DNA of 64,000 bases, taken from the NCBI RefSeq assembly GCF_003703975.1, contig NZ_QTJY01000001.1:558001-622000 (forward strand). The letters run 5' to 3'. The translations under genes were made by a program, and so were the position numbers. The notes beneath the pieces are model-generated. The model was not told where the DNA came from. It did not search any database and was given only the letters and a program-made list of their open reading frames with translations. Of the stretch, positions 29,866 to 45,348 are shown piece after piece; position 1 is the stretch's first letter; each line of letters opens with the position of its first letter. Source of the stretch: Larkinella soli. Its GTDB lineage: Bacteria; Bacteroidota; Bacteroidia; Cytophagales; Spirosomataceae.

Positions 29866-29940
29866 GGTCGGTGGATTTCACTCCGGGCCGGAAGACGGAG
29901 CGACGGAAGCGCAAAAAACCACAAAAGCCTAAAATAAACA

Positions 29941-29966
29941 ACGCCGGCCTCAACCTGAGCCGGCGT
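29941..29966 (-). terminator. Terminator of the tRNA-like RNA unit
   Basis: ACGCCGGC-rich stem of 10 bp with one bulged C (left arm 29941-29951, right arm 29957-29966) and a 5-nt loop, followed on the minus strand by TGTTTATTTT. It would end a transcript of about 320 nt started at 30255-30258, before the DUF819 gene. Confidence 0.7.
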
Positions 29967-30042
29967 GTCAAGATTACACTTCATCAACAAACTAAAAACC
30001 AAATAAAACATTGTTGTGGCTGATCTGCATCAGGCCAGGTGC

Positions 30043-30201
30043 TGTAGGAGGGGGACTCGAACCACCCACGGTGCGGTTAGCTACAGTACAACTTCTGGTG
30101 GTCAACCCCAGTCGCTCTTGCGAGCGGCATTATGCTGCGTTTATCCCGTTATCACCACCCCCGAGACAGGAGGGCACGTCTGCCAATTTCGACATCCTAC
30201 A
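30043..30201 (-). ncRNA. tRNA-like structured RNA with a long insert
   Basis: A 159-nt element whose ends form a perfect 7-bp acceptor-type stem (TGTAGGA 30195-30201 with TCCTACA 30043-30049). Next to it is a D-arm (30176-30192) with GG at tRNA positions 18-19, as in class II tRNAs. The anticodon-type arm (30158-30174) is a 5-bp stem with loop CTGTCTC, U at position 33 and GUC at 30165-30167. The T-arm (30050-30066) has loop TTCGAGT and one U-C mismatch. Between the anticodon and T arms lie 91 nt (30067-30157), far longer than any class II variable arm. They hold a TGGT/ACCA helix and a hairpin with a GCAA tetraloop (30113-30126). There is no CCA; position 30042 is G, then CAC. It has its own promoter and terminator. 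It may be an unusual tRNA or a regulatory RNA. Confidence 0.6.
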
Positions 30202-30219
30202 GTGTTGGAAAAGAGCGAT

Positions 30220-30257
30220 GTTGAAACAGTCCGTTGACCTTTTGCGATCGTTTCAAC
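30220..30257 (-). other. Hairpin at the 5' end of the tRNA-like transcript
   Basis: GTTGAAAC and GTTTCAAC (30250-30257 and 30220-30227) pair perfectly around 22 nt. The stem begins at the predicted transcription start, so it would cap the 5' leader of the RNA, a common way to protect a stable RNA. Confidence 0.5.
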
Positions 30258-30261
30258 GTTA

Positions 30262-30294
30262 CAAAGTTAACATACTTCCCAATTGATTTGCAAA
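30262..30294 (-). promoter_or_regulatory. Promoter of the tRNA-like RNA
   Basis: On the minus strand TTTG (30291-30294), a 21-nt spacer and TAACTTTG (30262-30269), a perfect Bacteroidota consensus. It predicts a transcription start near 30257. The adjoining AT-rich stretch 30295-30380 is upstream of the divergent regulator gene. Confidence 0.7.
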
Positions 30295-30380: not shown

Positions 30381-30884
30381 ATGGACAAAAATTTGGAGAT
30401 TGACAATATCGACCTCAAAATTCTGACCCTGCTGATGCACGATGCCAACATGCCGTATACCGAAATCGGGAAACGCATCTTCGTTTCTGGCGGTACGGTT
30501 CATGTCCGCATGAAGAAAATGGAGCAGATGGGCATCGTCCGTGGTTCCCAGCTGGTCATCGATCATGCCAAACTCGGGTGGGATATCAGTGCCTTTCTCG
30601 GCATTTATCTGGATAAAAGCTCCCTGTACGATGAAGTGGCGTCCGAACTGATGCGAATTCCGGAGGTGGTCAACATTCATTATACGACCGGCATCTACAG
30701 TATATTCGCCAAGATCGTCTGCCGCGATACCCAGCACCTGCGGGAAGTCCTGCACGACAAAATTCAGAAAGTATCGGGAATCCAGCGGACTGAAACGTTT
30801 ATTTCCCTGGAGGAGCGGATTCTCCGGCCTATTCCCTTCGGCGTCAATGTACCGGTCGAGAAGGAGTTTTCGGAAAAGCATTGA
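30381..30884 (+). CDS. Lrp/AsnC family transcriptional regulator
   Basis: A 167-residue regulator with an N-terminal helix-turn-helix (IDLKILTLLMHDANMPYTEI, then VSGGTVHVRMKKMEQMGIV) and a C-terminal ligand-binding RAM domain (ISAFLGIYLDKSSLY, VVNIHYTTGIYSIFAKI). Proteins of this family form octamers and respond to amino acids. Bacteroidota carry several; the specific regulon is unknown. It is divergent from the tRNA-like RNA unit, with about 85 AT-rich bases between the RNA promoter and this start that include TTTGACTTTTTTCAAA, a possible binding site. No clear promoter was found for the gene itself. Confidence 0.9.
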   Translation: MDKNLEIDNIDLKILTLLMHDANMPYTEIGKRIFVSGGTVHVRMKKMEQMGIVRGSQLVIDHAKLGWDISAFLGIYLDKSSLYDEVASELMRIPEVVNIHYTTGIYSIFAKIVCRDTQHLREVLHDKIQKVSGIQRTETFISLEERILRPIPFGVNVPVEKEFSEKH

Positions 30885-44841: not shown

Positions 44842-44919
44842 GAGAACTCAGGTTTAATTCATAAGCCTTTTACGTAGAACGACCTTACATTGTATTTCCT
44901 CGTCGAGTCGGCAACGTCC

Positions 44920-45348
44920 AGCGGAGTAAATTCATAAGCCGGATTCTGTTACCCGTAAACGTCGTAAACCGACGGCTTCGGGCTCTTACCATTTATCTCG
45001 ATTCCGAATCGCTCCGGAACTCTATCGACCTACCCGCGCCGGCATCACCCCGAAGGGCTACGGGAACGAGCAGCTCCCCTTCCGACGCCTATTTGGTCTT
45101 TCAGCCCATAAGGTTTACCCTGCCCCGTCTGTCACCAGCCGGGCGGTGGGCCCTTACCCCACCTTTTCACCCTTACCGGGGCGAACCCCGGCGGTATATT
45201 TTCTGTGGCACTTTCTGTCAGAACCACCTGCCGCGACGGGCGCTGCCGGCTTTCTGCCTTCCCGTTAGGAAGTATGGCGCTCTATGCTGTCCGGACTTTC
45301 CTCCCCACCTTCTTTTAAAGGCAGAGCGATAAGACGACTCACTCCGCT
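44920..45348 (-). ncRNA. rnpB: RNase P RNA (class A)
   Basis: The catalytic RNA of RNase P, which trims the 5' ends of tRNA precursors. It is recognised by the conserved GAGGAAAGTCCGGAC (minus strand, 45288-45303), the AGGGTGAAAAGGTG and GGTAAACC elements inside, and ACAGAATCCGGCTTAT near the 3' end (44934-44949). The P1 stem AGCGGAGT/ACTCCGCT closes the molecule at 45341-45348 and 44920-44927, giving 429 nt. A TAGATTTG promoter element lies at 45373-45380. The exact ends could differ by some bases. Confidence 0.93.

Follow-up and report, generated by a model that had tools for sequence, protein, structure and literature searches.

A putative tRNA-like RNA family with a large variable arm, widespread in an order of Bacteroidota and carried on viral contigs

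Free-standing tRNA mimics are represented in bacteria by the YrlA RNAs, and tRNA genes are known as sites at which phages integrate. The tRNA-Other of Bacillus cereus is described, in the part of its report drawn upon here, as a tRNA-like element that forms part of a regulated transcript and stands outside translation (PMC3399842), and non-canonical bacterial folds with longer variable arms are described for selC* tRNA-Cys and allo-tRNAs in the cited part of PMC7609411. As for tRNA identity, the sections of PMC9976931 used here name G73, G34, U35, C36 and C38 as the strong aspartate determinants, with the second pair being a minor one, and describe G1-C72 as strictly conserved in bacterial tRNA-Asp. 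According to the same sections, a change of A73 to G73 can switch leucine to serine identity, and G1-C72 together with G2-C71 is absolutely conserved in the tRNA-Ser of E. coli and most bacteria.

Here, the window denotes the whole 64-kb stretch of DNA that was analysed. Judged by comparative sequence analysis, the element on its minus strand (30201-30041, Table 1) is a real, conserved member of an uncatalogued tRNA-like RNA family. The earlier note on this DNA had advised a comparison with all Rfam families, and none of these reaches its threshold at the element. ARAGORN called 0 tRNA or tmRNA genes in the 64-kb window, and cmscan against Rfam 15 gave RNase P as the sole match in the window, located elsewhere. 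When Rfam was searched at E up to 10 in the element region, no tRNA (RF00005), tmRNA (RF00023) or Y RNA family was returned, and the four matches obtained were each far under the gathering score. No published description of the family was recognised in the literature searched, and distant blastn gave no match either for two phage copies against a phage collection or for the window copy against a plasmid collection. An open reading frame lying opposite the element (30011-30286, plus strand) reads the tRNA-like RNA region in reverse and is probably spurious.

Table 1. Coordinates of the features in the window. Element position i corresponds to window position 30202-i.
Feature	Window coordinates	Strand	Evidence
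tRNA-like RNA, T1 to C74, 161 nt	30041..30201	-	R1 155.4 bits (window sequence is in the R1 training set, so the match is not independent); 48-sequence covariation
Acceptor stem 5' strand, positions 1-7, partner 30043-30049	30195..30201	-	48-homologue covariation
Acceptor stem 3' strand, positions 153-159	30043..30049	-	48-homologue covariation
Discriminator G73 and encoded C74, CCA not encoded	30042, 30041	-	A3 residue counts
U8 G9, between acceptor 5' strand and D-arm		-	A3 residue counts
D-arm, Leu-like, with A14 A15 and G18 G19, positions 10-26	30176..30192	-	A3 counts; covariation
Anticodon-type arm, positions 27-45, loop CTGTCTC 30169-30163, GUC 30167-30165	30157..30175	-	Sequence; loop counts
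Variable-arm stem 5' strand GGTG, positions 46-49, partner 30070-30073	30153..30156	-	Covariation
Variable-arm stem 3' strand CACC, positions 129-132	30070..30073	-	Covariation
Two extra covarying pairs, positions 55-56 with 126-127	30146..30147 with 30075-30076	-	RNAalifold on A3
Helix H2 5' strand, positions 63-70	30132..30139	-	Covariation
Helix H2 3' strand, positions 113-121	30081..30089	-	Covariation
GCAA-capped hairpin inside the insert, positions 76-89	30113..30126	-	Basal pairs covary
Conserved motif CTGGGGTTGACCACCAG, core GG-U-N-GA-CC-A, positions 91-107	30095..30111	-	Core counts; pairing by eye
T-arm, positions 135-152, loop TTCGAGT 30061-30055, 5-pair stem with bulged U	30050..30067	-	Covariation; stem counts
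Second element, 31-nt near-invariant block	29974..30004	-	Exact 22-nt core counts
Terminator-like hairpin and T-rich tail	29931..29965	-	By eye
Promoter motif, TTG 30293-30291 and TAACTTTG 30269-30262	30262..30293	-	Motif counts upstream
Lrp/AsnC-family regulator gene, divergent from the element	30381..30884	+	PF01037 E 2.5e-19
RNase P RNA, class A	44919-45345	-	cmscan 264.9 bits

Folding of the window element as a single sequence gave no significant signal (z 0.26) and is uninformative here; the proof of the family is comparative. A structure comprising the cloverleaf and the variable-arm helices, set by hand, was examined in 48 distinct homologues, providing 33 pairs and 1558 cells, of which 95.3% were paired, compared to 48.9-59.6% when the partners were slid by 1-3 columns. 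Changes on both sides occurred in 20 of the 33 pairs, double-change cells numbered 189 against 54.6 in shuffles, and 0 of 500 shuffles reached any of the five measures. The acceptor stem and the variable-arm stem GGTG/CACC were both paired in 100% of cells, with both-side changes in 4 of 7 and 3 of 4 pairs, respectively; the anticodon stem, likewise 100% paired, was nearly invariant (both-side changes in 1 of 6 pairs). The D-stem was paired in 93.8% of cells (2 of 3 pairs changed on both sides) and helix H2 in 81.8% (8 of 8).

It follows from this covariation that the acceptor stem, Leu-like D-arm, anticodon-type arm with its CTGTCTC loop and T-arm with its TTCGAGT loop, all of which had been described in the earlier note from the window sequence, are present far beyond chance, and that the stems are kept with covariation in relatives, where their conservation had been proposed as a check. 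The GCAA-capped hairpin of that description is borne out as well: across 25 long-form homologues its three basal pairs reach 98.7% pairing, and their double-change cells number 19, compared with 3.7 in shuffles. Two further helices were not supported. The proposed TGGT/ACCA helix, in the register counted, was 90% paired with no covariation, exactly as in shuffles, the supported helix being GGTG/CACC; and an alternative helix of 30174-30179 with 30068-30074, suggested to replace the anticodon arm in the manner of tmRNA P2, was paired in 67.7% of cells versus 67.3% in shuffles, against the complete pairing of the anticodon arm itself. In the acceptor, the 7-bp stem stands and the register was set to positions 1-7 with 153-159, followed by G73 and C74, once U8-G9 were counted. 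The T-stem is indeed irregular, but a 1-nt bulge in a stem of 5 pairs describes it better than the mismatch proposed earlier. Among 174 distinct host copies, the T-stem has 5 unbulged pairs in 148 and the 1-nt bulge of the window type in 19, the rarer forms being a 2-nt bulge (4), 4 pairs (2) and one stem cut off. The earlier interpretation as a whole is thus partly supported.

A second alignment (A3; 62 rows, 59 distinct copies) comprises copies that had been detected through similarity or with a covariance model, an anticodon pattern playing no part in their detection. RNAalifold applied to A3 predicts the acceptor, anticodon, variable-arm and T helices and most of H2, the 3-pair D-stem being absent from its prediction, and it adds pairs between A3 columns 60-61 and 185-186 with 19 and 11 double changes. 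These extra pairs close an internal loop, GATAAA/CTAA, in the window copy. A3 was aligned by R1, a covariance model that contains the helices but not the two added pairs and that has 17 of the 49 sources of A3 in its training set; the two added pairs are therefore the only part of the prediction that does not depend on R1.

Copies of the element differ in length. Distinct copies measure from 91 nt (a contig-end fragment) to 196 nt in A3, 109-200 nt in A4 and 137-172 nt in the phage set, and in short forms of about 110 nt a small hairpin replaces the long insert. The core of the conserved motif was found in 30/59 copies of A3, 56/120 of A4 and 52/56 phage copies. Two candidates suggested by such an insert were rejected: an intron, given that the insert keeps covarying helices and that insert-free copies are absent among the aligned copies, and a tmRNA, given that there is no RF00023 match, that the P2-like helix is at shuffle level and that the host tmRNA lies elsewhere.

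The tRNA core and the tRNA ends are conserved to a degree close to invariance. In A3, T1, G2, U8, G9, A14, A15, U48 and the GGCAG that includes G18 G19 were each found in 59/59 copies, while A72, G73, C74 and the TTCGA of the T-loop were found in 58/59, the remaining row being cut off. The residues for the U8-A14 and A15-U48 contacts are accordingly kept. Among the canonical tRNAs of the host genome, C74 is encoded in 39/39 and CCA in 9/39 and, as C74 without CCA is common in them, the 3' end of the element resembles the host tRNA ends. Of the 77 viral loci, 40 were scanned for tRNA genes and 30 of these have any; in 15 of the 30, a tRNA-Ser gene immediately precedes the element, the spacing being 4 nt in 13 cases and 7 nt and 10 nt in the other two. 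Such short gaps suggest a tRNA-type processing of the 5' end by maturation enzymes, an argument from tRNA clusters that is weakened by the 10 of 40 scanned viral stretches in which the element is present with no tRNA gene. Maturation would probably proceed as for a tRNA, with RNase P cutting at T1, trimming to G73-C74 and addition of CCA.

The anticodon loop was the part in which decoding features were found to be lost. The loops of A3 read CTGTCTC (32), TTGTCTC (8), CGGTCTC (4), TGGTCTC (3), CAGTCTC (2) and CTATCTC (2), with CTGTCGC (2), CTCTCTC (1) and CTATCCC (1) as rarer forms and four stem-variant rows reading TTGTCTC. U35, C36 and C38 were present in 59/59 copies each and G34 in 55/59, the other 4 having A or C (anticodon AUC or CUC); U33 was retained in 50/59 and replaced in 9, and residue 37 was a pyrimidine in 57/59, being U in most copies. 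In 39/39 canonical tRNAs of the host genome, residue 33 is U and residue 37 is A or G. Because residue 37 is mostly U and U33 is not fixed, the RNA most likely does not decode. A rare-use tRNA with an oversized variable arm that still decodes GAC/GAU would explain the GUC anticodon, the intact core and acceptor and the position of the element among phage tRNAs; we nevertheless deem it improbable in view of the replaced U33, the AUC or CUC anticodons and the pyrimidine at 37, and of the canonical tRNA-Asp(GUC) already included among the 39 tRNAs of the host genome, which also has its own tmRNA elsewhere. The stem of the anticodon arm shows the same degree of conservation as its loop, so that the loop sequence could also be due to a different binding partner.

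All the five strong aspartate determinants are found in the window copy, together with G2-C71, and since U35, C36, C38 and G73 are practically invariant and G34 is kept in 55/59 copies, the RNA is probably aminoacylated, with AspRS as the favoured enzyme and SerRS as the main alternative. The first pair of the element is U1-A72, so the G1-C72 of tRNA-Asp is missing, which counts against aspartate charging, as does the A or C in place of G34 in 4/59 copies; the long variable arm might also, by our inference, clash with AspRS. Nor is AspRS certain, because the A73 to G73 change reported in the consulted part of PMC9976931 can turn leucine into serine identity. By that route SerRS would charge the RNA through G73 and the long variable arm and ignore the anticodon. 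Such a serylated mimic, to which we assign a low but real probability, fits the class II D-arm, the long variable arm and the tRNA-Ser adjoining half of the phage copies in scanned loci with tRNA genes; it leaves the invariance of U35, C36 and C38 unexplained, and U1-A72 departs equally from the G1-C72 that the same part of PMC9976931 gives for bacterial tRNA-Ser.

The earlier proposal that a promoter and a terminator flank a tRNA-like RNA with a long insert is supported, and many homologues have a Bacteroidota-type promoter motif upstream. The full motif TTG-N18-22-TAnnTTTG was found in 92/202 distinct upstream regions against 2/202 on the reverse strand, and TAnnTTTG in 139/202 against 33/202. 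Beyond it, an Lrp/AsnC regulator lies divergently in 77 of 128 distinct testable loci (9 more were too short), at a distance of 122-266 nt measured from the aligned part of the regulator, and with 52.7-87.6% identity to the window protein across the linked loci. Seven regulator-linked loci come from outside the window's order (L147, L156, L158, L163, L165, L170 and L172). The link is not universal, because no regulator was found upstream in 51 of the 128 distinct loci, many Cyclobacteriaceae and Saprospiraceae being among the named ones. AAATTTT occurred upstream in 57/111 regulator-linked regions versus 9/54 unlinked ones, the lengths of the regions differing between the two groups; AAATATTT (43 linked versus 16 unlinked) and TTTGCAA (42 versus 14) hardly differed over the same 111 and 54 regions. 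An operator for the regulator in these AT-rich boxes, weakly tied to the regulator, is therefore only suggested by the sequence. Other neighbours, which we take from their sequences to be RluD, an AMP-ligase, an AsmA/DUF748-like protein and others, recur in subsets of the loci and are read as lineage-specific.

Downstream, a second element was encountered. Its exact 22-nt core was present in 53/70 loci (L001-L070), five of which (L049-L053) are without the tRNA-like part, in 34 of 119 named stretches among the matches listed and in none of the viral loci. Most loci belonging to the window's family have the 31-nt block, as do L035 and L040 from other families; across the class, the core with up to 2 mismatches was detected in 3/247 genomes. 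A hairpin-like sequence and a T-run follow the block in homologous rows also, as judged by eye. We consider the 31-nt element probably to be a separate uncatalogued small RNA, and in the window the tRNA-like RNA and this element may share a transcript.

The occurrence of the family in cells was assessed by several searches. By blastn, 76 of 99 relatives match, including 9/9 genomes of the window's genus, the match being limited to the 3' part in five of the 76 (L049-L053). With R1, ordinary class II tRNAs score at about E 1e-8 to 1e-15, and the tally at E 0.001 (283/291 genomes of the order) was left unused; the own genome gives 5 matches at E 0.001 but one place at E 1e-14. Below 1e-18, about 212 of 291 genomes of the order match by hand count, with no match at that level in the small-genome families f8 and f21. 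At E 1e-14, matches were obtained in 45/247 genomes of the class, of which 36 fall outside the order, and in 23/198 genomes of the phylum sample; one of these matches (G071) has a length of 77 nt and probably represents an ordinary tRNA. When named genomes were scanned with a pattern, at least 119 stretches with the element were obtained, and Spirosoma, Dyadobacter, Runella, Algoriphagus, Cyclobacterium and Saprospiraceae were seen among the matches listed. Judging from names, the 80 titles among the matches listed presumably all belong to Bacteroidota. The element is chromosomal, mostly one copy per locus, and order-wide, not patchy. In one locus (L031:1831-2936), six element copies stand in tandem with short spacers between them.

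This distribution bears on two further explanations. The resemblance to tRNA-Leu, and the habit of phages to integrate at tRNA genes, could point to a tRNA pseudogene or a remnant of a phage attachment site; the strong covariation, the order-wide conservation and the phage copies that diverge but keep the structure refute it, and we give it practically no credence. A bacterial Y RNA of the YrlA type, a tRNA mimic working with Ro60, is disfavoured to much the same extent and is most improbable: Ro60/TROVE (PF05731) was found in 19/99 relatives but is absent from the window's genus (0/9 genomes), although the RNA is present in all 9.

Viral copies were recovered by the pattern scan on 77 contigs, and R1 matches 77/77, two being cut by contig ends. 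The Lrp/AsnC regulator was found by tblastn in none of the viral loci. ARAGORN on 40 of these loci gave at least 6 tRNA-type genes in 17 and none in the fetched stretch in 10, with a tmRNA in the same stretch in four (L322, L335, L346 and L355) and, in L370, a further tmRNA* call that overlaps tRNAs. As a side observation, L322, L331, L346, L350 and L370 each hold 16-26 tRNA-type genes in the fetched stretch; a clear tmRNA call was made in two of these contigs, and RNA ligase genes occur in two. Of 20 proteins from 13 viral contigs, 17 match a PHROG and three match none, the matches including portal and terminase (L308), DNA polymerase (L354) and RNA ligases (L346, L350 and L358). Phage and host copies differ in sequence and in insert, the structure being kept.

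Carriage on so many viral contigs, also where no tRNA gene is present, RNA ligase genes in the same stretch and the nearly fixed anticodon arm are what would be expected of an uncharged structural decoy or counter-defence RNA that absorbs anticodon nucleases or other tRNA-binding proteins. Such a decoy is not likely in our estimation, though worth keeping in mind; the host copies are chromosomal, mostly single per locus and order-wide, and the retained G73-C74 and top acceptor pairs are not obviously needed against an anticodon nuclease.

The insert loop of the phage copies is enriched in palindromes. A palindrome of at least 6 bases was found in 38 of 42 distinct phage insert-loop regions; in 500 single-base shuffles such regions numbered 13.1 on average and 21 at most. 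A palindrome of at least 8 bases was present in 27 of 42. These regions, taken from 56 phage copies with rows lacking the motif or repeating a region left out, are not independent, as related copies share palindromes, and a few are simple A/T runs. Palindromes of 6-12 bases and of differing sequences occur in the insert loop, for instance in L296, L309, L327 and L337. An ordinary hairpin accounts for part of the excess, and the palindromic loop may form a kissing RNA dimer.

Overall, the comparison of homologues establishes the family, its structure, its tRNA-like ends, the lost decoding features, the promoter motif, the synteny and the viral presence. The reading that we favour, held tentatively and at somewhat less than even confidence, is that of a free-standing tRNA mimic that matures like a tRNA but does not decode, is probably charged (preferably with aspartate, possibly with serine) and is under the control of the adjacent regulator. 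By resemblance, the RNA would derive from a leucine-type (class II) tRNA; its own promoter would drive transcription, and the adjoining divergent Lrp/AsnC regulator would probably control it in many genomes. Once folded with a tRNA core, it would probably be charged by AspRS, the favoured enzyme, or SerRS. The effector part is likely to be the large variable arm, in which an internal loop is conserved, and an amino-acid-linked tRNA mimic would probably act near the translation machinery. Phages, many of them rich in tRNAs and some with a tmRNA, have their own copy. A wider proposal, which we put forward as possible but rather doubtful, is a dedicated translation-associated RNA of Bacteroidota that differs from tRNA as well as tmRNA. 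It would be an aminoacylated mimic that does not decode, has a large effector arm and an amino-acid-type regulator, and is supplied by phages too, with a dimer possible in many phage copies. The family would be new among tRNA-like RNAs: it is widespread in an order of Bacteroidota, occurs on viral contigs and is missed by ARAGORN and Rfam. It would offer a natural test of which tRNA features survive the loss of decoding, and would present a tRNA mimic tied to an amino-acid-type regulator.

Among known systems, the element shares with class II tRNA-Leu (RF00005) the cloverleaf, the U8-A14/A15-U48 residues, G18 G19, the T-loop and the encoded C74, and its D-arm agrees by eye in 20 of 22 letters with the tRNA-Leu(UAG) of its own genome; it differs in having G73 and not A73, the loop CUGUCUC, U37, a long helical insert and no ARAGORN or RF00005 match. 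It has in common with tRNA-Asp G73, G34 (55/59), U35, C36, C38 and G2-C71, and is set apart by U1-A72, U37, the long variable arm and the Leu-type D-arm. With tmRNA (RF00023) it shares tRNA-like ends, a long insert and co-location in four scanned viral loci, whereas its insert is placed between the anticodon arm and the T-arm, its anticodon arm is kept and no P2 helix is conserved. Unlike YrlA, it has no link to Ro60, and Rfam gave no Y RNA match for it up to E 10. The tRNA-Other of B. cereus, likewise outside translation, belongs to a pathogenicity island of one strain in the cited part of PMC3399842, in contrast to a covarying, order-wide family that also occurs on viral contigs. The selC* tRNA-Cys and allo-tRNAs, as far as the cited part of PMC7609411 describes them, have longer acceptor and anticodon stems and the allo-tRNA serves translation, whereas the present element combines an acceptor of 7 bp with a loop that looks non-decoding.
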